64,000 nucleotides of DNA from contig NZ_JAQYWD010000004.1 of the NCBI RefSeq assembly GCF_030145145.1, positions 1 to 64,000 of the forward strand, given 5' to 3'. Under the pieces are notes generated by a model, which was given only the letters and a program-made list of their open reading frames with translations, made no database searches and was not told the origin of the DNA. Position 1 is the first letter of the stretch, and every line of letters begins with the position of its first letter. The DNA comes from Desulfobacula sp. (GTDB lineage: Bacteria > Desulfobacterota > Desulfobacteria > Desulfobacterales > Desulfobacteraceae). This document shows positions 13,519 through 50,460 of this stretch, in pieces. Made by a program: the position numbers and the translations under genes.

Positions 13519-16500
13519 ATGGCACTTCGAATAAACACCAATGTGGCTGCATTAAATGCCCACAGAAACATGATCAAAAATGACAATGCATTGTCAAGCT
13601 CCCTGGAAAGACTCTCTTCTGGTCTCCGAATCAATAAAGCGGCTGATGATGCAGCCGGTATGTCTATTGCCGATTCATTAAGATCCCAGTCCATGGGACT
13701 GGGCCAGGCCATTAAAAATGCCAATGATGGCATCAATATTGTCCAGACAGCAGATGCGGCGCTGGAAGAATCCATCAATATCATCAACACCGTTAAAACA
13801 AAATCCATCCAAGCCGCCCAGGACGGTCAGACCACTGAATCCAGGGCTGCCATCCAGGCGGATATCGACAAACTCATGCAGGAACTGGATACCATTGCAA
13901 AGACGACATCCTTTAACAATCAGAAGCTGTTGTCCGGTGCCTTTACCAACAAACAATTCCAGACCGGCGCTTACACCGGAGAAACCACCAATATCACCAT
14001 TGGATCAGCAGAAGCCAATAAAATAGGGCATGTCACCACGTCCCAGCTGACCCTTAAAAATGGTGAGGCCGGAACCGTTGACCTGAGTATTTTCAGTAAT
14101 GTTCAAAACCAGACCTATAATGTTGAATCCGTGGAAGTGGCCTTTGATAATTCAAGCCAGCACTCCATGTCAGCTGTTGCCGATGCCATCAACCGGATGA
14201 GTGACACCTTGGGCGTTTTTGCCACCGCCCAGGTCTCCTCCACCTCGGATTTGAATATCCAGGGCGGCTCCACCAGCAAAGGGTTCAGCATTAACGGAGT
14301 GGGCATCGGCCAGGTGGCCGTACAAACCAATGATGCAGATGGGGCCCTGGTAAACGCCATCAACTCGAAATCTTCTTCCCACGGGGTCATGGCCGCTGTT
14401 GACACCCAGGGCAAACTGACCTTATCCTCCTTTGACGGCCGGACGATCAAGGTGGAAACCGGGGGGGCTGAAACGGAAGCTGTTCTCAGGAATTCCGACA
14501 TGACCACTGTGGGACATGTCTCCCTAATTCAGTATGGCGCCAGCGAGATCACGGTCAACAATGTGGGCGGCGGAGATGCAGTTGCCTTAGCCACGGATCT
14601 GGAAACTGACGGCAATACCACCACCACCATGGCATCCACCATGGCGGCAGGCTCCACCCTTGCTGAGAACTCCACTCTGGCAGCAGGCTGGACCACAAAC
14701 CAGACCCTGGGAGGTGATGCCTTCAACAACTCCACCATCACCACAACCCAGGATTCCAGTTTTGCTGCCGGCTCTGTAATCGTCACCGGTAGTACTCTTG
14801 GAGCCAATTCTGATATCACCGGATCTGTCCAGATTCAATCGACAAACACGACCACGGGTCAAAGTACGATTGCCAAGGGTTCCATTCTCCAGGGAGGCAC
14901 TGAAATCGGAGCAGGTACGATTCTTGGCGGTACGTTTCTCTTGAACGATTCAAAAACAACAAAAACTGCAGCGACAAGCCTTCTGAAGGAATCGTCCACG
15001 TTAACAGCCGGCTCAATTATTGGAAACGGTTCTACACTTGGCGTGGAAGTAACTGTTGCGAAAACCAGCAAAACAGATGCCCAAAGCGTTGTTGTAGCAG
15101 ATTCAACCCTGGCAGCCGGCTCACTGATCGCCTCAAACTCAGTAGTGGGTGGAACGGTTAACCTGAGGACCACCACAAGTCAGACAAATTCAAGCAGTCT
15201 TTTGAAGACCGGTTCCAGTATTGCCAATGGATCCACCATTGGCGCCAAAGCGGTTCTTGGCGCAGATTTCACACTTGCGGCAGATGCAACCACAACCATC
15301 TCCAACAGTCTGATCAAAACTGACTCCATACTGGGAAGCGGTTCTACCATTGGCGCTGAAACTGTTCTTGGGGGAAGAGTGGTACTAAATGCCGACGTTG
15401 ATACAACCTTAACCGATAGCTTTATAAAAACGGGCTCAGATATTGCGGCAGGATCTATACTGGGCGCTGGTACTATAGTGGGCGGCGACTTTTTGCTGGC
15501 CAGAACAAGTGAAACTGATGCAACAACAGCAGAGAGTTTCTTGGCTGACGGGTCAAAAATTGCCGCAGGAACTGTCCTGAAAGCCGGCACAGAGCTTGCC
15601 GATGGCCAGTATGTTTCAACAACCAGCGGCATGGCTTCTGGTATTCTTACCAAAGATTACACGACCGATACCTTTACGGTGCTTTCAAATGGCGGCATCA
15701 AATCCCTTGCCATGGGATCGAGTCTTGCCAGTGGATCAACCCTGGCACAAGGTTCATACCTTGGCGCCAATGCGATCACAGGCGCAAGCGTAACCCTGAC
15801 TGAAGACATGACCATGAAAGCCGGGTCTACTTTAAAGGCAGATTCTGCCCTTGAAACAGACTCTTATTTTTCAAAGGCCATTGTCAATAAATGGGGAAAT
15901 GTTATCAGTGCCGGTAAGGTTTTAACCGGTAACATTACCCTGAATGAAAACTCCAGTTATACCACCATCGATTCCAGCCTGATCTCAGGATCAACACTGG
16001 GCTCAGGATCTGTCATTGGCCAGGGATCTTCTTTTGCCGAAACAGCCATCACCCTTGAGAGCACCACCAATGCAACCTACACAACCTCTACCCTGACTGC
16101 CTCGTCTTCTTTGGGAGCCGGCACCACTTTGGGCGCCACCACAGAAATGAATGGTGACATGACCGTTACGGCCACAGCAGGTGTTACAGCCGGGACCCTA
16201 ACAGGCACCACCTTAGTTGCATCAGGTTCAACCCTGGGAGCAGGAATAACATTAACTTCCGGTACGACCCTGGGTTCCGGTACGGTCCTGGGTTCCGGTA
16301 CGACATTAGGCGCAGGCACAAACCTAGCGTCCGGTGCCACATTGGGAGCAGATACCGCCCTGGGTTCCGGTACGACTCTGGGCACTACGACTGCCCTGGG
16401 TTCCGGTACGACTCTGGGGGCCTTAACCGTCCTGGGTTCCGGTACGACTCTGGGCACTACGACTGTCCTGGGGTCCGGTACGACCATGGGTGACACAACT

Positions 16501-19500
16501 GCCCTGGGTTCCGGTACGACTCTGGGGGCCGGTACGGTCCTGGGTTCCGGTACAACCGTGGGTGCTGCCACTGTGCTGGGTTCCGGTACCATCATAGGAT
16601 CGGGTTCAGTCCTTGGCTCCGGTACTTCTCTGGGTGCAGGCACTACACTTGTGGCAACCATGACGCTGGGTTCCGGTACGGTTCTGGGAAGCGGCACAAA
16701 TTTGGGAGCCGGCACAACTGTGGGTTCCGGTACGACTCTGGGGGTCGGTACAACCTTAGGTTCAGGCACTGTGCTGGGTTCCGGATCAGTCCTGGGAGCC
16801 GGTACACTCATCGGTTCCGGTACGGTTTTCAATGCAGCCGTTGTCACGTCAGGAGATGAGACGCTTGCAGGAACTGCTACTGGTACAATTGGTGATAATT
16901 CAGAACTTCTTGCCGGCAGTTGGCTCAACAGTGGCGCTGTTATTGGTAATGGAGAACAATTTACAATTTCCGGTACTACCGGTAGTGCGCAAGTCAGTGG
17001 TGACGGAGCTACTACATTAAGGGCATTGGCCGCCGCACTTGGTACTATTGGGAACGATGCAGTTTATCGTCTTACCGCTGATACGACCCTGTCTTCAGGA
17101 AATATAACGGGTTTAGCTGCGGGTGCCATTCTTGTAAGTGGTTCAACACTTGAATCAGGCTCAACTTTATCAGAGAATAATATCAACCTCCAGACAGCCC
17201 TTACCCTTGATAACAATCAGTCTTTAACCCTGAAAGGCGGCGGTGCTTTAATCGCAAGTGGTGCCGAATTGAGAGGCGACGATTCTGCAATTGGTTCCGG
17301 AGCCTTATTGGCAGGCGCGGCAACGACGATTGGAAGTGGTGCCCTACTGGCAGGGGCCAATGCCATTATCGGCAGCGGTGCCGTAATACATGGGGCTGAT
17401 CTTACACTTATAGCAAATGCCACCCTCACATTGGTTGGGGACAGCACCATTGGAACCGGGGCCACGCTAAGCAACGGGACTACTCTTGGAACCGGGGCCA
17501 CATTGCACGGCGCCGGTGCCACCATTGGAAGCGGCGCTGTATTGCATGGGGCAGGGGCGACAATCGCAAGTGGCGCTACATTGCATGGCGCAGGAGCGAT
17601 TATTGGGAGCGGTGCCACATTGGGTGGGGCAGGAGCAACAATCGCAAGTGGCGCTGTATTGCATGGCGCAGGAGCGACTATTGGAAGCGGTGCCACATTG
17701 GGTGGGGCCAATGCCGTTATCGGAAGCGGTGCCACATTGGCCGGCGCCGGGGCCACTCTTGGATCTGATGCGGTGCTCACACTGGTCGGAGACAGTGTTC
17801 TTGGCGCCGGTGGAGCCACACTGCATGGAGCAGCCATGGACGTTGCCGGCACAACAACCCTAGCCGGTACCACAGCCCTTGCATCCGGGACCGTTCTTGG
17901 AAGCGGATCATCCATCAGCGCAGCTGTCACGCTCGCAACACTTAGTGCCCTTGGATCATCTATGGATCTTGCTGCAGGAACAGCCCTTGTCTCAGGGTCG
18001 ATACTCGGTTCGGGCTCCACATTTGGGGGTGATTATACCCTGAATGCAAGTGCTATCACACCAACTACCGGCACCACGACGCTGGCTGCCGGTTCAATGC
18101 TTACGGCTGGCTCAATACTTATAGCCGACTCCACATTTGGTGCAGCCATCACCGACCAGACAGGGGGAGCCAACTATGCAACCACCCTGACCGATGACAT
18201 GACCTTAAGGGCAGGGTCCAAACTGATGGATGGCACCAAGCTGACCAATGGATCCTACCTGGATTCCAAAATTGTGGTCAGCGGAACCAATGCCATCATC
18301 GATGACATGACACTGCAGGCCGGTTCACGGCTGACTGCAGGGTCCAGTCTTGCCAATGGATCCTTTTTTGATGCGGATATCACCTCAAGCGGTACGTCCA
18401 CCATGACGGATAATATGACCCTGGCAACCGACTCCAGGCTGGCCAGCGGATCGACACTGACCACCGGAAGCCGGGTTGAAGCAGATTTAACCCTTACGGA
18501 GACCACAGGCAGCCTTGAAAAAAATATGACCATGAATGCAGGTTCTCTCCTTGCCAGTGGCAGCACCTTAAGGGCCGGGTCTTCTTTTGATGCCAAGTTG
18601 ACACTGGCAAGTGCCAGTAATTTGACCCTGACCCAGGGGATGACCCTGGAAACCGGATCAAAACTGATCAACAACTCGACCCTGGAAGCCGGGTCAAAAG
18701 TGGCAGCAGAGGTACAGATCAAAAATGATCTGACAATGGAAAAAGCTGGAACCATTGCCACGAATTCCACCCTCAAGGTGTCAGATAACTTCTCGGTGGC
18801 TGCCGGCTCGACCATCGGGGGGGGGGTTACCCTTGACAAAAATGTTGCCGTCACGGCTGATTTTAATATTGCCAAGGATTCCGTCATTGCAGACAATTCT
18901 GTCCTCACGGACGGTTCCACCATTGGTGGCACCATGACCCTGGCCAATGATGAAACCGTTGATGACACCACGGATCTGCTCATGAAAGCCGGCTCCAGTC
19001 TTGCCGCCGGCAGTATGATTGCCCAAAATACCTACCTCACAAACGATGTCACGGGTTCTGACGGCACAGTGTATACGGTCGGCAGCATTCTGCAAGCTGA
19101 CATTACCACGAAGGGGTCAACTGCCATCACCAATGACATGACCCTGCAGAACGGTTCCATGCTGGCCAAAGGCAGTACGCTGGCGGCCAACAATGAGAAT
19201 ACCACCTTTGCCGACGCTGTTGCCGGTGAAGGCGTAATCAACCGGCTCTCAGACCTGAATGTCCTGACCCAGGAAGGCGCCCAGACAGCCATCTCCATTG
19301 CCGATGCCGCCTTGAAATCCCTGGACCAGAACCGGGCAAACCTGGGGTCCATCCAGAACCAGTTGTCATCCACCATCTCCAATATTTCAACCACCCGGAC
19401 AAATGTTCAGTCTGCTGAATCCTCCATCCGAGACGTTGACTTTGCGGAAGAATCCTCCAACTTTACCAAGATGCAGGTATTGCAGCAGGCAGGCACCTTT

Positions 19501-19554
19501 GCCATGAGCCAGGCAAATGCCAGTGCTCAGGCCGTATTGAGCCTGCTCCAGTAA
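13519..19554 (+). CDS. fliC: Giant flagellin FliC with repeat-built central domain
   Basis: 2011 aa, against about 280-500 for common flagellins. Residues 1-175 are a normal D0/D1 half (MALRINTNVAALNAHRNM, LSSGLRINKAADDAAGMSIA). Residues about 176-330 hold a Flagellin-IN-like unit (INGVGIGQVAV). From about residue 360 to 1890 the chain is built of Gly/Ser/Thr/Ala-rich repeats of several families (see repeat entries). The last 100 residues are the normal D1/D0 end (ANLGSIQNQLSSTISNI, ESSIRDVDFAEESSNF, ending VLSLLQ). I see no cysteine. Both terminal halves are intact and the frame is uninterrupted over 6 kb. It has a strong GGAGGA site, a sigma-28 promoter and a terminator, so it should be the expressed filament protein. 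The Ser/Thr density offers many sites for the Maf/nonulosonate system next door. Confidence 0.95.
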   Translation: MALRINTNVAALNAHRNMIKNDNALSSSLERLSSGLRINKAADDAAGMSIADSLRSQSMGLGQAIKNANDGINIVQTADAALEESINIINTVKTKSIQAAQDGQTTESRAAIQADIDKLMQELDTIAKTTSFNNQKLLSGAFTNKQFQTGAYTGETTNITIGSAEANKIGHVTTSQLTLKNGEAGTVDLSIFSNVQNQTYNVESVEVAFDNSSQHSMSAVADAINRMSDTLGVFATAQVSSTSDLNIQGGSTSKGFSINGVGIGQVAVQTNDADGALVNAINSKSSSHGVMAAVDTQGKLTLSSFDGRTIKVETGGAETEAVLRNSDMTTVGHVSLIQYGASEITVNNVGGGDAVALATDLETDGNTTTTMASTMAAGSTLAENSTLAAGWTTNQTLGGDAFNNSTITTTQDSSFAAGSVIVTGSTLGANSDITGSVQIQSTNTTTGQSTIAKGSILQGGTEIGAGTILGGTFLLNDSKTTKTAATSLLKESSTLTAGSIIGNGSTLGVEVTVAKTSKTDAQSVVVADSTLAAGSLIASNSVVGGTVNLRTTTSQTNSSSLLKTGSSIANGSTIGAKAVLGADFTLAADATTTISNSLIKTDSILGSGSTIGAETVLGGRVVLNADVDTTLTDSFIKTGSDIAAGSILGAGTIVGGDFLLARTSETDATTAESFLADGSKIAAGTVLKAGTELADGQYVSTTSGMASGILTKDYTTDTFTVLSNGGIKSLAMGSSLASGSTLAQGSYLGANAITGASVTLTEDMTMKAGSTLKADSALETDSYFSKAIVNKWGNVISAGKVLTGNITLNENSSYTTIDSSLISGSTLGSGSVIGQGSSFAETAITLESTTNATYTTSTLTASSSLGAGTTLGATTEMNGDMTVTATAGVTAGTLTGTTLVASGSTLGAGITLTSGTTLGSGTVLGSGTTLGAGTNLASGATLGADTALGSGTTLGTTTALGSGTTLGALTVLGSGTTLGTTTVLGSGTTMGDTTALGSGTTLGAGTVLGSGTTVGAATVLGSGTIIGSGSVLGSGTSLGAGTTLVATMTLGSGTVLGSGTNLGAGTTVGSGTTLGVGTTLGSGTVLGSGSVLGAGTLIGSGTVFNAAVVTSGDETLAGTATGTIGDNSELLAGSWLNSGAVIGNGEQFTISGTTGSAQVSGDGATTLRALAAALGTIGNDAVYRLTADTTLSSGNITGLAAGAILVSGSTLESGSTLSENNINLQTALTLDNNQSLTLKGGGALIASGAELRGDDSAIGSGALLAGAATTIGSGALLAGANAIIGSGAVIHGADLTLIANATLTLVGDSTIGTGATLSNGTTLGTGATLHGAGATIGSGAVLHGAGATIASGATLHGAGAIIGSGATLGGAGATIASGAVLHGAGATIGSGATLGGANAVIGSGATLAGAGATLGSDAVLTLVGDSVLGAGGATLHGAAMDVAGTTTLAGTTALASGTVLGSGSSISAAVTLATLSALGSSMDLAAGTALVSGSILGSGSTFGGDYTLNASAITPTTGTTTLAAGSMLTAGSILIADSTFGAAITDQTGGANYATTLTDDMTLRAGSKLMDGTKLTNGSYLDSKIVVSGTNAIIDDMTLQAGSRLTAGSSLANGSFFDADITSSGTSTMTDNMTLATDSRLASGSTLTTGSRVEADLTLTETTGSLEKNMTMNAGSLLASGSTLRAGSSFDAKLTLASASNLTLTQGMTLETGSKLINNSTLEAGSKVAAEVQIKNDLTMEKAGTIATNSTLKVSDNFSVAAGSTIGGGVTLDKNVAVTADFNIAKDSVIADNSVLTDGSTIGGTMTLANDETVDDTTDLLMKAGSSLAAGSMIAQNTYLTNDVTGSDGTVYTVGSILQADITTKGSTAITNDMTLQNGSMLAKGSTLAANNENTTFADAVAGEGVINRLSDLNVLTQEGAQTAISIADAALKSLDQNRANLGSIQNQLSSTISNISTTRTNVQSAESSIRDVDFAEESSNFTKMQVLQQAGTFAMSQANASAQAVLSLLQ
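14866..15600 (+). repeat. About 37-residue repeats in the flagellin insert
   Basis: Six to seven imperfect units of 36-39 residues (about 111 bp). Each follows the plan K-[TE]-[GDS]-S-x-[IL]-x2-GS-x-IG-x4-[VL]-GG-x-[FV]-x-L, then a Thr/Asp/Ser-rich stretch. Unit starts are seen at KESSTL, ADSTLA, KTGSSIA, KTDSILG, KTGSDIA and ADGSKIA. Units are diverged at DNA level, so this block looks older than the hexapeptide array. Confidence 0.75.
16234..16827 (+). repeat. 33 tandem hexapeptides (left-handed beta-helix type)
   Basis: Residues 906-1103 read as 33 unbroken six-residue units without insertion, mostly LGSGTT, LGAGTV or LGSGTV. They fit the [LIV]-G-x2-[STAV]-x hexapeptide rule of left-handed parallel beta-helices. 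Three units make one coil, so this would be 11 coils. At DNA level 14 bases, ctgggttccggtac, recur about nine times identically, showing recent 18-bp and 36-bp duplication. Confidence 0.9.
17482..17754 (+). repeat. Seven tandem 13-residue repeats in the flagellin insert
   Basis: Seven exact 39-bp units, residues 1322-1412, of the form [TIV]-[IL]-[GA]-[ST]-G-A-[TV]-L-[HGA]-G-A-[GN]-A. Three more units of the same period lie at 17287-17403. The 13-residue period differs from the hexapeptide array, so this is a second, independently amplified block. Units are highly similar at DNA level (ttgcatggcgcaggagcga recurs). Confidence 0.85.
18194..18740 (+). repeat. About 36-residue 'MTL..GS' repeats in the flagellin insert
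   Basis: Five imperfect units of 36-38 residues. Each starts with [DNG]-M-T-[LM]-x2-[GD]-S-[KRL]-L and continues with x-GS-x-L-x2-GS, then a D/E-A pair (DMTLRAGSKL, DMTLQAGSRL, NMTLATDSRL, NMTMNAGSLL, GMTLETGSKL). Shorter related units flank it on both sides. Confidence 0.7.
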
Positions 19555-37061: not shown

Positions 37062-38126
37062 TTAAATCACAATATTGAATATTGAATCATCATGGTCGTT
37101 TACCAGTGCTTCAATAAAGCAGGTTTGCTGGATATCTTCTGCTTTGGCCATGACACATTCTATCTTGCGAACCTGGTAGTCAACCGTTGCCAGACGGGTT
37201 TCCAGATCCGGGATCATGGATCGAACATAGGCACAGGACACTTCGTCCTTGAATAAAAATCGTCCGGTAATTTCGTTTTTCAATATTGAAAAATCCCCTC
37301 TCAAGGGCCCCAGACGTGTCATGTCCAGTAAAAACGAAATCCGAATCAGGGTGTCTACCGTCTTGTTCTGTTTTTTTCTTTTACGCCCTGTATCTATGAA
37401 TAATTGCCCGAAACGGAATACGGATTCATTGAAAATGGGGAAGGGCAGCAGCCATCGTCCGGTGTCCGAACTGTGGTGATTGAGCAATTGAAAGTTTTCC
37501 AGGGTTTCAGAAAAACCAACAGCACTTTTCATTGTTTCAAATTTCCCGGCATCTGCCATCAACAATTCTTTAAGGATATGACCCTTCATATCCTGTTTGA
37601 ACATCCTGTCCAATTGGACGTTGATATCGGAAGCAGATGTCTTGCCCAGCAAGGTTTGGGCCACTTTCTTTTCCCACAGCAGACCGCTTTTGTCCATTAA
37701 TTTCGGCAAAAACCGTTCCTCTGGTTCACCTGATTTTAATGCCATGTCATATAGCAGGTCTTTCACAACGGATTGCTTTATCCCGGTGACATCAGACAGG
37801 GGGTCATTTTTCGAAATAAACCGGACAAGGGAAGATATCTGTTGACGGGTCATTTTTTGAACCGGGGCAATGAGCTTTAAGACAACCGCATCCTTTTGGG
37901 CAAGAACTTTCAATTGTACTTCCTCACCGGGTTTCAGCAGCATGGATGTTTTTGCCACGACTTTTTGACCGTTTATCAGGAGCTGGGCATTCCCCGGGGG
38001 CATCATCTTCAATACCGTTGCCCGGACCTTCTGATTTTTCACAAACAAGGGCAATGGGGGTTTTTTACCCTCGTCCCGGGTAAGGATCATTTCCGAGGAC
38101 GACAGATGGATACCGGTAATCATCAC
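37062..38126 (-). CDS. FliK-like protein paired with FhlB
   Basis: 354 aa. The N-terminal third is beta-rich (VRATVLKMMPPGNAQLLING, then AKTSMLLKPGEEVQLKVL). The C-terminal third (LDMTRLGPLRGDFSILKNEI, then GRFLFKDEVSCAYVRSMIPD) resembles the Flg_hook / FliK_C domain, including the 'L-G-x-[LV]-x-[VG]-x2' start. A classical fliK is at 54811-56400, so this would be a second, smaller substrate-switch protein. It overlaps the DUF2802 gene by 4 bases and is followed by fhlB. Assignment is moderate. Confidence 0.6.
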   Translation of the reverse strand: MMITGIHLSSSEMILTRDEGKKPPLPLFVKNQKVRATVLKMMPPGNAQLLINGQKVVAKTSMLLKPGEEVQLKVLAQKDAVVLKLIAPVQKMTRQQISSLVRFISKNDPLSDVTGIKQSVVKDLLYDMALKSGEPEERFLPKLMDKSGLLWEKKVAQTLLGKTSASDINVQLDRMFKQDMKGHILKELLMADAGKFETMKSAVGFSETLENFQLLNHHSSDTGRWLLPFPIFNESVFRFGQLFIDTGRKRKKQNKTVDTLIRISFLLDMTRLGPLRGDFSILKNEITGRFLFKDEVSCAYVRSMIPDLETRLATVDYQVRKIECVMAKAEDIQQTCFIEALVNDHDDSIFNIVI

Positions 38127-38680
38127 CCCTTCTTTTCCATTGCCATAAACTTTTTTTTAAGATCAATCACCAGCTGCACTTCTCCTTTTGGAATGGCCAG
38201 TCGGTCGGCAATGGCATTGATATCAAGGTTTTGGTTATACATCCCAATAATCTGGTTCTGATGGTCCAGTACCGCGTATGAAGAGGTGTCTGGAATGAAT
38301 TGACCCTGCCGTTCTTCCAATTTTGTTTTTAATGTCTCTGCCCGGGATAGCACAAGATTCAGGCTGATAATCCGGGAATCCAATGCTGTATTTAATTCTT
38401 TTAATACCCGTTTTTTCTCTGTTATCTGTTGATCAAAACTGATGGCCGCATTTCTGGATTCCTGAACCAACGGTTCGAGCAGGCGGATAATATCCCCGGC
38501 AGATCTGCCGGCCTGCCCGGCCGCTACCTGCCCATCATCCTCATGGGTATGGGGGGGGGGTGCTTCCCCCAAATTCAGGCGATTGATCTTTTTCACAAAA
38601 ACAAATAAAAAAATAATCAGGAAAAAATTGACAAAAAAAAGAATCCCCATCCAGAATTCGATTGAAAAGATGTCTATCAT
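38123..38680 (-). CDS. Membrane-anchored coiled-coil protein, DUF2802-like
   Basis: 185 aa. Residues 8-30 form one membrane segment (FWMGILFFVNFFLIIFLFVF). A His/Gly-rich linker with PPPHTHEDD follows, then a coiled coil (residues about 65-130), and a C-terminal helix-turn-helix-like part (IIGMYNQNLDINAIADRLAI, PKGEVQLVIDLKKKF) typical of DUF2802. Such proteins occur downstream of fliA, motility or chemotaxis genes; their function is unknown. It overlaps both neighbours by 4 bases (ATGA). Confidence 0.75.
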   Translation of the reverse strand: MIDIFSIEFWMGILFFVNFFLIIFLFVFVKKINRLNLGEAPPPHTHEDDGQVAAGQAGRSAGDIIRLLEPLVQESRNAAISFDQQITEKKRVLKELNTALDSRIISLNLVLSRAETLKTKLEERQGQFIPDTSSYAVLDHQNQIIGMYNQNLDINAIADRLAIPKGEVQLVIDLKKKFMAMEKKG

Positions 38681-38961
38681 ATCATCGTATCCAGGAGTCT
38701 GCCCGTTGCCCCAGGCTCCTGATCCGTTGTTGTTCTTTTTTTTTCGTTGCGCTTTTTTTTTAACGCGTCTTTCTCTTTTTTGGCGGTTAGCTTTTCAGAT
38801 GCATCAAACTCCTGCACGGTTGTGTTTTTAACCCGTGCAGTGGCTTCCTGCTGCGCCAGGACCTGTTCCGGGGAAGGTTTGGGCGTATGGGTCTGATGTG
38901 CCAATTCCTGGACCGCCACGGACTGCTGGATCACAATATTATGCCCCGGTACGGTTGTCAT
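38677..38961 (-). CDS. Small charged protein of unknown function
   Basis: About 94 aa from the ATG at 38961, which has GGGGGG upstream and lies 13 bases after the previous stop; the open frame begins earlier, inside that gene. The sequence is hydrophilic, with NIVIQQSVAVQELAHQTHTP near the start and a very basic helix (KLTAKKEKDALKKKRNEKKR) near the end. No domain is recognised. Its place inside the fliA operon suggests a flagellar role. Confidence 0.6.
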   Translation of the reverse strand: MTTVPGHNIVIQQSVAVQELAHQTHTPKPSPEQVLAQQEATARVKNTTVQEFDASEKLTAKKEKDALKKKRNEKKRTTTDQEPGATGRLLDTMI

Positions 38962-38974
38962 GTTACCCCCCTTT

Positions 38975-40453
38975 CTAAGTGGCGCTGAAAGATTTAAAAC
39001 TGACCCGGGCAATGTCCGACCCGGGCAACACTTTTTTCAACGTGGTTTCGATACTCAGTAAAAGATCTGCTTCGGTCATCAGCTCTCTTTTTTCGAAAAC
39101 AAGATTTTTATTCAGAGAATCATAGATTAAATCCCGATAAAAGGATAAATTATTCTGAATTTCATGATACACGCGTTGATCTGCATAATCGATGGAGATA
39201 TCCGCCGCGATATAGACCATGTCGGTTGATTGATCCGATGATAATATGATAAAATCCGTTAAAACTATATTTCCCGGCTTTTTCATATCGCCTTGGGATT
39301 TGGCCGGGAGATCCACGGTGGCACGTTCACTGTTCGTTTGTCCCTTCACGGCAAATTGTAAAATGGACTCAGATTGTCCTGTTTCACGGGATTCACCTGA
39401 TGAAAAGAAAAAATACGCCGCTGGAACCGTAATTCCCAGAACAATCAGTACCGACGCACAGACTATCACACGCTTTGATCGAACCCATGGGGACCCTGCC
39501 GGTATTTTTTCCCCCAGTGGGGGTACAGCAGTTTCTTGATCGTCTCCTTCCAGGACAACCGGATGTGTCTCATCCGAAGTTTCATCCGCGTCAAAATCCT
39601 CATTTCCCAATATATCTTCGTCCGCAACTGCGTCATCCAGACTGTCATCACCAGCATTGTCCATTAAATCGCCAAGGACATCTTCATCCTCCTGATCGGC
39701 TGCCCTTAATAACGTATCAATATCATCCTGGGATATGAGAATATCCTCATCATCCTCTTCCGCCGCACCCGCTTGTTCTTTGTCGTCCTCGGACACATAC
39801 AGAAGCGCGTCAATATCGTCCTGACTGACCGCCGGGTCTGCTTCATCCAGAATGTCAGGCAGGGAAGACATCTCATCATCTGCCGGTTGCATCAACGCAT
39901 CCAGTGTTTCCTGGGCAATCAGGCTCCCCTGGATATCCACGGCTTCGGATGCCGCAATGATATCCTCATCCGTTTGGCTGTTACTGCCTTCCCCTGGTTC
40001 CGCTGTTTCCTCACCCCCTGGGGTCTGGACCATCTGATCCATACTGTCTGTTTCTATCAGCCGGTCGTCCTGGGGGTCAGGGTCCACCGTATCCCCTTCA
40101 ACTTCAGTCTCTGCCGTTTCTCCGGCAATCAGATCGTCAAGGTCATCCAAGGAAAGCATTTCAAAGTCTTCATCAGCCGAGGCATTCATGAGGCTGTCAA
40201 TATCATCCTGGGAAATAAGTTCCATATCCTCCGGGTCAAGGTCACCCTCATCCAGCAAGTCTTTTCCTTCGGACACATCTGAATTCGAAAAAAGGGCCTT
40301 GTCTTCCCGGGAAAGCGTGCCCAGCATATCCAGTGATTCGTCATCATCGCTTGATTGCTTTTCTTCAGTGCCGTCAGTGGAAGAAGAAGCGAAAAACTGA
40401 TCTAACTCATCCTGGGATAATAAATTGTCTTGTTCTAAACCTGGATCTGACAT
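38975..40453 (-). CDS. Membrane protein with six FliM-N-like motifs and a FliL-like domain
   Basis: 492 aa, not a described family that I recognise. Residues 1-320 are strongly acidic and look disordered, but hold six copies of an 11-residue motif: LLSQDELDQFF (11-21), LISQDDIDSLM (79-89), MLSLDDLDDLI (99-109), LIAQETLDALM (178-188), AVSQDDIDALL (208-218) and LISQDDIDTLL (239-249). This is the N-terminal peptide of FliM (here ILSQEEVDSLL) and FliY, which binds CheY-P in studied species. One membrane helix (329-350) follows, then a periplasmic domain (about 385-492) that resembles FliL (VYIAADISIDYADQRVYHEI, then LREL-like MTEADLLLSIETTLKKVLPG). It lies 13 bases downstream of fliA. I infer a membrane-tethered multivalent ligand of CheY or of a switch partner. 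Confidence 0.8.
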   Translation of the reverse strand: MSDPGLEQDNLLSQDELDQFFASSSTDGTEEKQSSDDDESLDMLGTLSREDKALFSNSDVSEGKDLLDEGDLDPEDMELISQDDIDSLMNASADEDFEMLSLDDLDDLIAGETAETEVEGDTVDPDPQDDRLIETDSMDQMVQTPGGEETAEPGEGSNSQTDEDIIAASEAVDIQGSLIAQETLDALMQPADDEMSSLPDILDEADPAVSQDDIDALLYVSEDDKEQAGAAEEDDEDILISQDDIDTLLRAADQEDEDVLGDLMDNAGDDSLDDAVADEDILGNEDFDADETSDETHPVVLEGDDQETAVPPLGEKIPAGSPWVRSKRVIVCASVLIVLGITVPAAYFFFSSGESRETGQSESILQFAVKGQTNSERATVDLPAKSQGDMKKPGNIVLTDFIILSSDQSTDMVYIAADISIDYADQRVYHEIQNNLSFYRDLIYDSLNKNLVFEKRELMTEADLLLSIETTLKKVLPGSDIARVSFKSFSAT

Positions 40454-40466
40454 TTGATGACCTCTT

Positions 40467-41225
40467 TTAATTAAAGTAATCTTGAAGTCTGGTTTTTAAC
40501 TTCACCAGAACCGCGGTATGAATCTGGCAGATTCGGGATTCCGTCAAGGTGAGGACTTCACCGATCTCTTTTAATGTCAATTCGTCATAATAATAAAGGG
40601 ACACCACCAGTTGTTCTTTTTGCGTTAAGGTTTTAATGGCCTTTGCCAGAACAAACTTGAGTTCCTCCCTGTCAAAACAATCGGCAGGATTCTGCTGCCC
40701 TTGAATACCGGCTTGAAAACTTATCTTTGAATAGGTATCATTTTTCTTTGTCCGGATGAATTCATCCAGGCTTAAAACGGATGCCCCGTGAATCTGGGTC
40801 AGCATATCATAATATCCCTCAAGGGAAACCCCCAGTTCCTTACATATCTCTTCATCCGTTGCCGGGGACCCGTTCTGATCTTCAATGGCCTTTACTGCCC
40901 GGGTAATATCCTGGATTTTTTTTCTCATGGACCTTGAATAGGTATCCATGCTTCTGAGTTCATCAAGAATCGCCCCTTTTATCCGGTACTGGGCATAGGT
41001 CTTTAAACTGACATGTTTGGATGTATCAAACTTATCCACGGCATCAATCAGGCCCAGAGATCCTGCAGAAACCAATTCATCAAAAAAGACACTGGACGGA
41101 AGGCGCAGGGCAAATCTTGCCGCGATATGCTTTACAAGATATGCATACTCAATAATGCTTTTTTCACGCCACAGGTCCTTATCTGTTTTTTGGGGTTGAA
41201 CCTTATTTTTCATATAGAGACACAA
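40467..41225 (-). CDS. fliA: Flagellar sigma factor FliA (sigma-28)
   Basis: 252 aa if begun at TTG 41225, which has GAGGGG directly upstream; an ATG at 41213 is the alternative. Region 2 is clear (EYAYLVKHIAARFALRLPSS, LVSAGSLGLIDAVDKFDTSK), then YAQYRIKGAILDELRSMD. Region 3 has GSPATDEEICKELGVSLEGY. Region 4 has LTLKEIGEVLTLTESRICQI. It should read the promoters before fliC and fliD. No flgM is found in the window, so its anti-sigma factor must be elsewhere or different. Confidence 0.95.
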   Translation of the reverse strand: MCLYMKNKVQPQKTDKDLWREKSIIEYAYLVKHIAARFALRLPSSVFFDELVSAGSLGLIDAVDKFDTSKHVSLKTYAQYRIKGAILDELRSMDTYSRSMRKKIQDITRAVKAIEDQNGSPATDEEICKELGVSLEGYYDMLTQIHGASVLSLDEFIRTKKNDTYSKISFQAGIQGQQNPADCFDREELKFVLAKAIKTLTQKEQLVVSLYYYDELTLKEIGEVLTLTESRICQIHTAVLVKLKTRLQDYFN

Positions 41226-41233
41226 TATCCCCT

Positions 41234-42127
41234 CTAGGTTGCAGCCTGAAACGCCTTTTGCATAAAAAACGTCAAGCTGCCATTAAAATCGGTTCTTGCA
41301 GGGCTGTTCCCCACGGTCTTTGCAATTTCGTCCAGGGCTTTTGCCGACAGTGAGTCCGGGGCCGTGTCCATGATCAATCCCCTTTTCTGAACCGCCTGCT
41401 GCAATTGTTTGTCAAACGGAATACACCCCACGTATTCCAGCACAACATTTTTCAGGAATTTATCCAGGGCCCCGCTTAAGGACGCATATACTTTTTTAGC
41501 CTCAGTATCCGAATCCACCATATTGACAATCAGTTTAAAATGTCTTGTCCCATATTCCCGGGACATGACCTTCATCATGGCATAAGCATCTGTAATGGAG
41601 GTGGGCTCTCTTGTGGCAATGACAATACATTCATCACAAGCGGCATTAAAATACAGGACGTTTGAAGAGATACCGGCACCCGTGTCCACAAAAATAATAT
41701 CCGCCTGATCCGACAACCCTTCGAACTCACTTAAAAGGTTGAGTTTTTCACCGTCATTGAGTTGTGTTAAATCAGCAAACCCCGATCCGCCGGGCAAAAT
41801 TTTAATCCCATGGTCTGATTCGACCATGACCTGGCTCAAGGTTTTCTCCGAACGAATCACATGCCGGATATTATACTCCGGTCTTAAATTAAAAATAATA
41901 TCAATGTTTGCCAGTCCGACATCCGCGTCAACGATCACCACCCGCCAGCCCATCCGGCTCAGAGAAACGGCCAGATTTCCAACGATATTGGTTTTGCCAA
42001 CCCCGCCCTTTCCGCTGGTTACTGCGATGACCCTTGGCAGATTTTTTTTATCCGATGCCATACCAGCCTGGCTCCTTGAAAGCCCTTGATTTTTAACAAC
42101 GCTTCGAAGTCCTTTTGCCTGATCCAA
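41234..42127 (-). CDS. flhG: Flagellar number regulator FlhG (FleN/YlxH), MinD-type ATPase
   Basis: 297 aa. The N terminus DQAKGLR (2-8) matches the DQAxxLR motif by which FlhG activates the FlhF GTPase. The deviant Walker A SGKGGVGKT is at 38-46. VIVDADVGLANIDIIFNL is switch I, and IIFVDTGAGISSNVL is Walker B. The C terminus is short, with an amphipathic MTS-like end (LTFFMQKAFQAA). It starts 2 bases after the flhF stop and controls flagellar number with FlhF. Confidence 0.95.
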   Translation of the reverse strand: MDQAKGLRSVVKNQGLSRSQAGMASDKKNLPRVIAVTSGKGGVGKTNIVGNLAVSLSRMGWRVVIVDADVGLANIDIIFNLRPEYNIRHVIRSEKTLSQVMVESDHGIKILPGGSGFADLTQLNDGEKLNLLSEFEGLSDQADIIFVDTGAGISSNVLYFNAACDECIVIATREPTSITDAYAMMKVMSREYGTRHFKLIVNMVDSDTEAKKVYASLSGALDKFLKNVVLEYVGCIPFDKQLQQAVQKRGLIMDTAPDSLSAKALDEIAKTVGNSPARTDFNGSLTFFMQKAFQAAT

Positions 42128-42128
42128 C

Positions 42129-43229
42129 TTAATATGTCTCCTTTGACCCCTTGCCCAGGATAATGTTTAACAACTGCCGCTTATCCGGCACCATCAAATC
42201 CTCAGGGACCCTTTGCCCATTTGCAATCAAAGAAACAGGCAATTGTATATGCTTTACCTGATCCAATATTTTACCGCACCGTTTTGTTTCGTCTATCTTC
42301 GTAAAGACAACCGTAACCGGATTAAATACTGAAAAAGCTGCTGCTGCATCCTTCATAATAGTCGATTCAGATGTAACACTCAAGACCAAATGAGTTGAAA
42401 TCTTAAAATCCGTCCGCATCAACTGCAATATCTCATCAATTTTCGGCTTGTCAAACTGGCTGTGCCCGGCCGTATCAATTAATACCATATCCATTGATTT
42501 CATTCTATCCAAAGCACTGGACAAATCCTGGGAACTAAACGCAGGAACACATAACAATCCCATGATCGAGGCATATGCTTTGAGTTGTTCAAATGCCCCC
42601 ACCCGGTAATTGTCGATGGAAATCAGGCCGATTTTCATTTTTTTTTGAAACCGCAGCAGGGCCGAAAGTTTTGCGATGGTGGTTGTTTTGCCCACCCCTG
42701 TAGGACCAACAAAAGCGGCCACATGGGGGACTCCCGACCGTCTGTCCCGATCAAAAAAATCCTGGGTCATCAGGTGATGCAGACATTGACGCATCACCCC
42801 CTTTCTCAAAGATTTAATTTTGGCATCCGGATCCCGGACGTCCGCCATTAACCCGCTGGCCTTTTGGATCATGTCGCCGGCCAGTGTTTCACTGACACCA
42901 GCCCGTAAAAGGGCCGCGAGAACGCCCACTGACTCAACATGATTACAGACCATATGGCGCATCCCATTTCCAAAACCGGCAATGGAAATCATATCTTTAA
43001 TCTCGGCAATGTCATTTTTTATGCCATGGATCATATGATCTTTCCCTATTTTTACATCCGACTTTTCCGGCAGGGCGGCTTCAACTGCAAACATTGTTTT
43101 TGCATAAGGATCAAGGGGTTTTTTAGGAATTTTTCGAGTGCTTAAGATCATGGCATCTGATCCCAGTTCTTCTTTGATGGTGGCAATGGCCAATTGAATA
43201 TTCTCAGCCTTAAAAATTTTCCTATTCAT
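42129..43229 (-). CDS. flhF: Flagellar placement GTPase FlhF (SRP54 type)
   Basis: 366 aa. The N-terminal B domain is short and starts KIFKAENIQLAIATIKEELG, with DAMILSTR. The helical N domain is around 95-160. The G domain begins VAAFVGPTGVGKTTTIAKLS (P loop 175-182), followed by the DNYRVGAFEQLKAYA, VLIDTAGHS and FTKIDETKRCG motifs. It sets the pole or site of flagellar assembly and recruits FliF. It overlaps flhA by 8 bases. Confidence 0.95.
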   Translation of the reverse strand: MNRKIFKAENIQLAIATIKEELGSDAMILSTRKIPKKPLDPYAKTMFAVEAALPEKSDVKIGKDHMIHGIKNDIAEIKDMISIAGFGNGMRHMVCNHVESVGVLAALLRAGVSETLAGDMIQKASGLMADVRDPDAKIKSLRKGVMRQCLHHLMTQDFFDRDRRSGVPHVAAFVGPTGVGKTTTIAKLSALLRFQKKMKIGLISIDNYRVGAFEQLKAYASIMGLLCVPAFSSQDLSSALDRMKSMDMVLIDTAGHSQFDKPKIDEILQLMRTDFKISTHLVLSVTSESTIMKDAAAAFSVFNPVTVVFTKIDETKRCGKILDQVKHIQLPVSLIANGQRVPEDLMVPDKRQLLNIILGKGSKETY

Positions 43230-48995: not shown

Positions 48996-49988
48996 TTATC
49001 TCTCAAAATCTGTTGATATTATATCTTTCACCTTAAACGCCTGAAGCCCTCGTTGAACCCCCGCATATCCCGTGAGTTTTTTTAACCCGTCCACATAACA
49101 GACGAGTGGTTCATCAGCATCATTATCCAGCTGAATGACATCGCCCTTTTGCAAATAGATCAACCGTTCCCCCGTAATTTCAGTTTTGCCCAATTGAATC
49201 CTGAGATCAATCTGAGATTCCAGGATAACTTCCCGGATCATTCGGCGCCAGTTTGTATCAATTTCTTCAACTTCAGCCTGAACCCCTGAGGACAATTTGT
49301 TTCGAATGGGTTCAATCATGGAATACGGATAACAGACAATAAGGTTACCTGCGGACTGTTCAAGCTCAATCTCGAACCGGGTAACCAGCACAAAATCCGT
49401 GGGCAAAGCAATGGCGGCAAACTGGGGATTCATTTCCGACCGGATCAGGGAGGTTTTGATGGGCTCAATGGGCGCCCAGGACGATTCAATATTTTTAAGG
49501 ACTGCCACAACCGACTTTTTAATCATCACTTCTTCGATGGAGGTAAATTCCCGTCCCTCTACCCGGGCTTTGCCAAGGGCTTCACCACCGAAAAACGTAT
49601 CGATCAGATTGTAAACAAGCTGACTTTCAAACACAATCAGCCCATGTCCCCTTAAGGGCTCCATCCGGAAAACATGCAAACTTGTGGGGACCGGCAAACT
49701 CCTTACAAATTCAGAAAATTTCAATGTATCAAACGGACTGGCACTGACATCGACGTTGGTTTGAAGCAACGAAGAAAATGTAGCCCGAACTTCCCTGGAA
49801 AGTCTTTCGTTTATAACATCAAAGGTGGGCATTCTTGCCCGGACAACCTTATCCTGACTGGTAAAATCATAGGTAACAACCCCCTCAACCAATGGTGGCG
49901 AGGCAACATCTGTTTCGGTTTCCACATCACCTGAATCCAGCCCGTCTAATAGACTGTCAACCTCTTCCTGGGATAATATTTCACTCAT
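48996..49988 (-). CDS. fliM: Switch protein FliM
   Basis: 330 aa. The N-terminal CheY-binding peptide is ILSQEEVDSLL (residues 4-14). The CheC-like middle contains FFGGEALGK and the conserved VSASPFDTLKFSEFVRSLPV. A C-terminal SpoA domain follows (IDLRIQLGKTEITGERLIYL, DVIQLDN). It links CheY signals to rotation. Its N-terminal peptide is the single-copy counterpart of the six motifs in the 492-aa protein at 38975-40453. Confidence 0.96.
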   Translation of the reverse strand: MSEILSQEEVDSLLDGLDSGDVETETDVASPPLVEGVVTYDFTSQDKVVRARMPTFDVINERLSREVRATFSSLLQTNVDVSASPFDTLKFSEFVRSLPVPTSLHVFRMEPLRGHGLIVFESQLVYNLIDTFFGGEALGKARVEGREFTSIEEVMIKKSVVAVLKNIESSWAPIEPIKTSLIRSEMNPQFAAIALPTDFVLVTRFEIELEQSAGNLIVCYPYSMIEPIRNKLSSGVQAEVEEIDTNWRRMIREVILESQIDLRIQLGKTEITGERLIYLQKGDVIQLDNDADEPLVCYVDGLKKLTGYAGVQRGLQAFKVKDIISTDFER

Positions 49989-49995
49989 AAGTTCA

Positions 49996-50460
49996 TCACT
50001 GCATTATAAAGAATGTAAAATAAATATTTCTAACCGTGGCCTTGGGAAAAAGCGAATTAATCCGTTTGAGTACCATATACTTGAACATGATTTTTCCTTC
50101 CGGGGTTCTCAACGAAAGCCAGGTCATCTGTTGTACCTGCCCTGAAATAATTTCCCTGATCCGGTCCGCCATTGCATTCACCGGCTCCTTGAACCGGATG
50201 TCGATTAATTCCAGGGACAGGTTCATGCTGACCCGGCTCATTGTTGAACCGGGCCTGAGGGGGAGATGATCAAACGGGTCAAGATCAATCACATCTTCAA
50301 ATACACTCTCCGCTTCATGGGTCAATATGGCTTGAGGATTTCCCGGGTTGGAAAGGATCTCATTAACTTTTGGCACCCCTTGGGCCATGTCGTTAAAAAA
50401 GACGTGCCAGGTTCCACTGGTAAGACCGATCAACAGGACCAGGGATGCTGCCATGATCAT
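49996..50460 (-). CDS. fliL: Basal-body-associated protein FliL, start uncertain
   Basis: 154 aa from the ATG at 50460. The product is a membrane helix (IMAASLVLLIGLTSGTWHVF) and a periplasmic FliL domain (VNEILSNPGNPQAILTHEAE, then ISGQVQQMTWLSLRTPEGKI). FliL proteins normally have a basic cytoplasmic stretch before the helix. Here the frame stays open upstream to 50541 and reads LKKRFKSPKV just before the ATG, but offers no ATG, GTG or TTG. An ATT at 50538, about 16 bases after the predicted transcript start, is a candidate start. No clear ribosome binding site precedes either. It heads the fliL-to-fliA operon. Confidence 0.85.
   Translation of the reverse strand: MIMAASLVLLIGLTSGTWHVFFNDMAQGVPKVNEILSNPGNPQAILTHEAESVFEDVIDLDPFDHLPLRPGSTMSRVSMNLSLELIDIRFKEPVNAMADRIREIISGQVQQMTWLSLRTPEGKIMFKYMVLKRINSLFPKATVRNIYFTFFIMQ

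Follow-up and report, generated by a model that had tools for sequence, protein, structure and literature searches.

Switching of the flagellar motor is usually described as a direct meeting of phosphorylated CheY (CheY-P) with the N-termini of FliM. The EIDAL peptide of FliM is itself also the site to which FlhG binds, and we know of no partner of a FliM-N-like peptide other than CheY and FlhG. HubP, a membrane protein, gathers ParA-type ATPases by means of a long cytoplasmic tail that is acidic and contains repeats. In published accounts, the N-terminal EIDAL motif of FliM is identified as the CheY site (PMC6946799), and FlhG is reported to interact with FliM/N via the FliM N-terminus (PMC12826062). 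A third account describes FipA, a DUF2802 protein that recruits FlhF in polar flagellates and is encoded in Vibrio just downstream of the flhF-flhG operon (PMC11620751).

In a 64,000-nucleotide stretch of DNA from Desulfobacula sp. (the window), we identified a protein in which known parts are joined in a combination without a description in the literature searched. The titles and abstract openings covered, which leave most subscription journals outside reach, describe no protein with several FliM-N motifs, and the six motif peptide strings gave no literature matches. The array protein (P0001) is encoded by a 492 aa ORF at 38975-40453, as the original prediction had it, and the gene lies on the minus strand, like all features of its locus described below. 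The protein comprises an acidic tail, then one helix and then a C-terminal domain. The tail (residues 1-325) is acidic, with 109 D/E versus 9 K/R. The single transmembrane helix covers about residues 323-352 (39398-39487), where an AlphaFold2 helix coincides with a hydrophobic stretch in the sequence. Residues 393-492 (38978-39277) form a FliL-fold domain in the predicted structure, which is probably periplasmic. The acidic tail, the one-helix anchor and the FliL-like domain had all been proposed from the window alone, and each is borne out.

Six FliM-N-like segments had been reported in the tail, starting at residues 11, 79, 99, 178, 208 and 239. All six occur at these positions, but the pattern written for them is matched letter for letter by only three: LLSQDELDQFF (residues 11-21, 40391-40423, predicted helix 14-24), LISQDDIDSLM (79-89, 40187-40219, helix 82-91) and LISQDDIDTLL (239-249, 39707-39739, helix 242-256). 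The fifth, AVSQDDIDALL (208-218, 39800-39832, helix 211-218), departs from the pattern at its first residue only. The other two are degenerate: MLSLDDLDDLI (99-109, 40127-40159, helix 102-110) begins with M, lacks Q and ends in I, and LIAQETLDALM (178-188, 39890-39922, helix 181-188) has A in place of S and T in place of D/E. We also found a seventh, decayed copy, TLSREDKALFS (46-56, 40286-40318, helix 50-56), which in the alignment stands opposite GELSQDDIDSLM-type segments of orthologues. In the AlphaFold2 model (19 sequences, mean pLDDT 54.6) the tail is of low confidence except for short helices, and these predicted helices, also at low confidence, overlap all six motifs. Directly after the last motif is a second conserved peptide, AADQEDEDVLGD (residues 250-262, 39668-39706), which is nearly invariant across the 19-sequence alignment.

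The motifs exceed chance expectation under both patterns that we used. The core pattern, [ST]Q[DE][DE][ILV][DN]x[LIMF], occurs four times in the window tail, whereas 50,000 shuffles averaged 0.0027 occurrences and gave at most one, and a looser pattern occurs six times, as compared with a mean of 0.09 in 5,000 shuffles of the tail. A position weight matrix (PWM) built from 15 distinct FliM motifs was dropped, as it separated the tail poorly from its own shuffles (mean maximum 6.5, 99.9th percentile 20.7); we think that this was due to the richness of the tail in D, E, L and S and to the uniform background. It was replaced by the exact patterns with shuffles and by a PWM from 313 array motifs with tail background, which at threshold recovers five of the six window segments and misses that at residue 99. 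In the genome of the window the motif pattern has five matches, three in the array gene and one in fliM; the fifth, inside an ORF that by eye resembles a glycyl radical enzyme, was discarded as chance.

Absence of conservation in homologues had been set beforehand as grounds for abandoning the prediction, and the motifs proved to be conserved. Among 56 array-family proteins the core motif count has a median of 6 and a maximum of 12 and is zero in three, and the looser count has a median of 8 and a maximum of 18, the motifs lying a median of 35 residues apart. Across relatives, copy number ranges from 1 to 18. The 19-sequence alignment has 32 invariant tail columns, of which 15 fall in the 66 motif residues and 17 in the 259 linker residues (p 0.0003). 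The array has a sound basis and is more general than the window alone could reveal. It shares with the EIDAL peptide of FliM and FliY the core S-Q-x-[DE]-[IV]-D-x-L-L, and one array copy lies near the N-terminus as in FliM. It differs in its setting, as a single membrane protein outside the C-ring bears as many as 18 copies, and in sequence: the residue that precedes the aliphatic one is D in 301 of 313 core motifs, whereas 59 of 60 FliM stretches fit a pattern demanding E at this place. By sequence the array motifs form a distinct dialect (DDID as opposed to [DE]EVD), which may reflect a tuned affinity or a different partner.

The FliL-like character of the C-terminal domain emerged from structure rather than sequence. 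A Pfam scan of the protein returned unrelated weak matches only, with no match to FliL (PF03748), and the NCBIfam FliL model scored E = 0.0028, under its cut-off. PF03748 is matched weakly by 9 of 27 family members (best E 0.00045, under the Pfam cut-off), and a phmmer search of the array protein against PDB sequences gave nothing relevant. However, a structure model of the C-terminal 170 residues (m9ccb2b42b422, mean pLDDT 71) matches FliL of Helicobacter pylori (7sgn) with a Foldseek E of 8.4e-5 and a Z of 11.3 (2.4 A across 95 residues). Two further FliL entries, 6ahq and 6ahp, follow at Z 11.0 and 10.9, and the next match is stomatin, at 8.5. In its predicted structure the domain therefore has the FliL (FliL/SPFH-like) fold.

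The genome also has a canonical fliL (49996-50460), which adjoins fliM (48996-49988), and the array gene is instead placed after fliA; the array protein is therefore a paralogue. It resembles FliL in fold, in its one transmembrane helix and in being encoded in a flagellar operon. It differs in the addition of an about 320-residue acidic cytoplasmic tail with motifs, in occupying its own slot after fliA while coexisting with canonical FliL beside FliM, and in scoring under the Pfam cut-off. The family profile also picks up short ORFs that resemble ordinary FliL in many genomes across the phylum; in G115 and G002 such an ORF immediately precedes fliM. As originally reported, FliM of the same genome, which starts MSEILSQEEVDSLL, carries one N-terminal motif, ILSQEEVDSLL. 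The Pfam scan detected neither a FliM nor a SpoA (FliMN_C) domain in the array protein, both of which are present in this FliM, and gave no LysM match.

The placement of the gene in the fliA-flhG-flhF operon was correctly predicted. Directly upstream, with 13 bases between, is fliA (40467-41225), followed by flhG (41234-42127), for whose product the closest solved structures are FleN and FlhG-type site-determining proteins, and by flhF (42129-43229), which encodes an SRP-type GTPase. Downstream are a conserved 94-aa ORF (38677-38961) without a Pfam or NCBIfam match and a gene for a membrane protein (38123-38680) that we call FipA-like on the basis of position and weak similarity; it passes the DUF6115 cut-off and matches DUF2802 only at E = 0.0018, under the cut-off. 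FipA shares with the array protein its operon neighborhood, with the same flhF/flhG surroundings, but is a different protein. We examined 51 array loci, which are not independent genomes (L037-L062 largely repeat genomes already represented by L003-L031, and L059 and L115 both belong to a single genome). A homolog of the DUF6115/DUF2802 gene is downstream of the array in all 51. In 44 of the 45 loci that reach so far, fliA is the next named gene upstream, the exception being L046, in which flhG is next. In all 44 loci reaching so far flhG is upstream, two named genes away (one in L046). A tblastn search recovered the 94-aa ORF in 41 of these 51 loci, L046 not being among them. The cheY of the window's genome (C39:69487-69858) is ~29 kb from the array gene. 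Its product is canonical, with matches to solved CheY structures at about 1e-41, and CheX adjoins it. The two are grouped with a PilZ-like ORF, named by eye, beyond the flagellar cluster (L117:5487-6794 on C39, outside the window); the CheX has a Pfam E of 4.7e-24.

Within its own family, the protein has matches in 61 of 86 genomes, and the C-terminal alignment matches 56 of 241 genomes of the class (at least 90% completeness), motif presence having been checked for part of these genomes. A contig scan gave 26 loci, from Desulfobacula, Desulfobacter, Desulfospira, Desulfotignum, other Desulfobacterales and Deltaproteobacteria MAGs. We then chose 20 relatives of the order that have a DUF2802 match but no array match, and in 19 of them there is no motif in the slot. 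Six of these 19 slots have nothing between fliA and the DUF2802 gene, five have a FliL-like protein (by eye) without motifs, and the remainder have small ORFs or were not resolved. The twentieth relative (G129) has a few degenerate motifs in the slot. Outside the order, cheY follows fliA in 12 of 19 readable genomes and is not found there in seven. The products are 64-73% identical to the flagellar CheY of the window's genome, and a FliL-like protein is encoded next to or near the cheY. None of the FliL-like proteins examined outside the order has a motif. In this sample, a FliL paralogue in the slot after fliA, often beside cheY, seems to be older than the arrays, which among the sampled genomes were seen only in the window's order. 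The gene had been called part of the core regulon; it does belong to a core flagellar operon, but in only part of the order.

We surveyed CheY in 60 of the 77 genomes matched by the family and class searches. A flagellar CheY ortholog (E below 1e-50) is present in 54 of the 60 array genomes, and motifs were counted in 56 of them, as the array gene is truncated or split in G048 and G035, has an unclear start in G243 and is split in G021. CheY-positive genomes (n = 51) have a median of 8 motifs (range 5-18), and the five CheY-negative genomes have 5, 8, 1, 1 and 5 (one-sided Mann-Whitney p 0.002; shared ancestry was ignored, and the CheY-negative set was drawn after a gap in E-values had been seen, between 1e-30 or worse and 1e-52 or better). 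A sixth CheY-negative genome, G021, was added by hand and has three motifs in a frameshifted array gene. Its flagellar cluster (L250, L251) is seemingly decaying: flhA and the array gene are each split over two frames, and flhB is broken into two parts separated by more than 1 kb. Thus, its short array gives no independent support for CheY. The CheY-negative genome with eight motifs is G018, an assembly in 1180 contigs.

Of 49 array genomes, 48 yielded a CheA. Genomes with more CheA tend to have more motifs (Spearman 0.51, n = 47, p 0.0003), and with genome size partialled out the correlation is 0.46 (n = 47), shared ancestry being ignored in both cases. The 47 exclude G243 and also G241, in which the array runs into a contig end and the motif count is therefore a lower bound. 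Within the window's family the correlation is 0.36 (p 0.037; partial 0.29, permutation p 0.057), which is weak, and in this family the number of motifs follows genome size (0.61). Outside the family it is 0.49 (p 0.076; partial 0.47, permutation p 0.055). With the number of CheY-like response regulators the correlation of motif number is weaker, 0.31 overall and 0.19 outside the window's family. FliM was found in 46 of the 49 genomes and not in G044, G074 and G241. The last of these (L092), rated 97% complete, has the array-type gene at a contig end and gave no match to FliM or FlhA. Genes can therefore be missed in such assemblies.

The reading that we favor, at somewhat less than an even chance, is that the FliL paralogue serves as a multivalent antenna or buffer for CheY-P at the motor. 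Anchored by its one helix, the protein would place the FliL fold in the periplasm and the acidic tail in the cytoplasm and, by analogy with FliL, would lie near the stator and the basal body. Each motif would act as a FliM-N-like peptide that folds into a short helix on its partner. Several weak sites beside the C-ring would then hold a local pool of CheY-P, which would feed the FliM N-termini or compete with them, with motif number setting the capacity of the pool. Binding, location at the motor and an effect on switching are all steps that we infer. CheY-P is the best-supported putative partner of the tail, though we hold even this identification tentatively. In its favor are the motif itself, the flagellar CheY of most array genomes, the fewer motifs where CheY is missing and the correlation with CheA; we also count the helices over all six motifs (low confidence), the enrichment of invariant residues and the position of cheY after fliA outside the order. 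Counted against it are G018, the seven of 19 outside genomes without cheY after fliA, the ~29 kb between cheY and the array gene in the window's genome, and the genome G049. With D for E, the affinity of the motifs for CheY may differ from that of FliM.

For the role in CheY-P binding put forward in the original prediction, the motif counts provide an indirect link to CheY and CheA. The prediction did not include FlhG as a candidate ligand, and FlhG also interacts with the FliM N-terminus according to the account cited above. The tail could mimic the FliM N-terminus and bind the MinD-type ATPase FlhG, holding it at the membrane or basal body, where it would compete with FliM/FliN delivery and with the other partners of FlhG and so help to set the number and place of flagella. 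We consider this rather unlikely. It would fill the part of HubP in bacteria with a FipA-like gene, and it accords with flhG upstream in 44 of 44 loci, with the DUF6115/DUF2802 homolog downstream in 51 of 51, and with the reported position of FipA, the FlhF recruiter, in Vibrio. Like HubP/FimV, the array protein sits in the membrane and has a long, acidic tail with repeats on the cytoplasmic side, here proposed to gather FlhG. Unlike HubP, which has a periplasmic LysM domain, it has a FliL fold with no LysM match in the Pfam scan, and its tail is N-terminal, in the opposite orientation.

Against CheY as the sole ligand speaks G049, a 97% complete MAG. Its intact array gene encodes five motifs, most of them weaker. 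Searches of this genome recovered no CheA, MCPs or FlhA and no flagellar CheY (best match 3.7e-19), and the CheY/CheX pair of the window's cluster is absent from the corresponding place. The cluster (L203:5277-16005; also L046) is a single run of open frames, FliF-FliG-FliH-MotE/FlbB-like-FliL-FliM-FliN-FlhF-FlhG-array-FipA-like. In the 60 kb of contig that were read, fliI, fliJ, fliOPQR, flhA, flhB, fliA, flgD, flgE, downstream flg genes and flagellin were not found. The cluster could possibly encode a rotor without export apparatus or filament, and it hints that a flagellar rotor may be retained without export genes. The retention of these genes together with the array is what would be expected if the array served FlhG or the rotor and had lost its part in CheY signaling, though this is a single genome and genes can be missed in a MAG. 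We had read G049 as proof that CheY is irrelevant, and withdrew this in view of the smaller arrays in genomes in which no flagellar CheY was found and the CheA correlation. Binding of FlhG does not predict that copy number tracks CheA count and CheY presence, and the few, mostly weaker motifs of G049 also speak against it. Moreover, 19 of the 20 order relatives have a DUF2802 match and, as read, flhF, flhG and fliA without an array, and the binding of FliM-N by FlhG has been reported only from other bacteria. The two roles may also both apply.

Less probable still, and in our view improbable, is that the motifs bind another part of the rotor or export apparatus (e.g., FliN, FliG or FliH) and neither CheY nor FlhG, acting as spacers or as an assembly tether between the stator ring and the C-ring. 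The retention of the array in G049 together with MS-ring and C-ring genes, the DDID dialect of the motifs and the conserved AADQEDEDVLGD peptide are consistent with such a scaffold. However, it does not predict the CheA correlation, and it requires a partner beyond the two known for this peptide.

The array of one relative (L022) contains a 66-base unit in 8.5 copies at 94%, a recent tandem duplication, and motif copies can therefore multiply in this way. Neutral expansion of a motif-bearing unit by replication slippage in an acidic disordered tail, with no dedicated function, would be in line with these copies and with the variation from 1 to 18, but it is already made unlikely, and we consider it very improbable, because the window gene has no such DNA repeat left (save a 2.4-copy 9-base match at the lowest score) and its motif copies use differing codons while the peptides persist, because motif residues are enriched among the invariant columns, and because most of the distant members, whose anchor domains are only 15-25% identical to that of the window, keep the motifs (core pattern absent in 3 of 56). 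The array is thus a short linear motif that evolves in copy number while its sequence stays held.

Under the CheY-P antenna reading, the arrays are a conserved second set of peptides (5-18 per chain in the 51 CheY-positive genomes) on a protein with a stator-associated fold. If correct, this changes how the CheY-P concentration at the motor is set or, should FlhG be the ligand, how FlhG is held at the flagellar base. A fuller version, possible though somewhat doubtful, is that a membrane-anchored multivalent CheY-P antenna forms an extra layer between the kinase and FliM. Duplication of FliM-like peptides would let its capacity evolve along with the number of chemosensory systems, and the same peptides might also hold FlhG, so linking the control of flagellar number to chemotaxis.

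Elsewhere in the window we noted several large ORFs, all named by eye. A flagellin-like ORF at 13519-19554 (plus strand) encodes 2011 residues, and its long middle part is repetitive, with units such as LGSGTTLGAGT; ordinary flagellins are far smaller. Others are FlgK-like (1423 aa), FlgL-like (1022 aa) and FlgE-like (926 aa).
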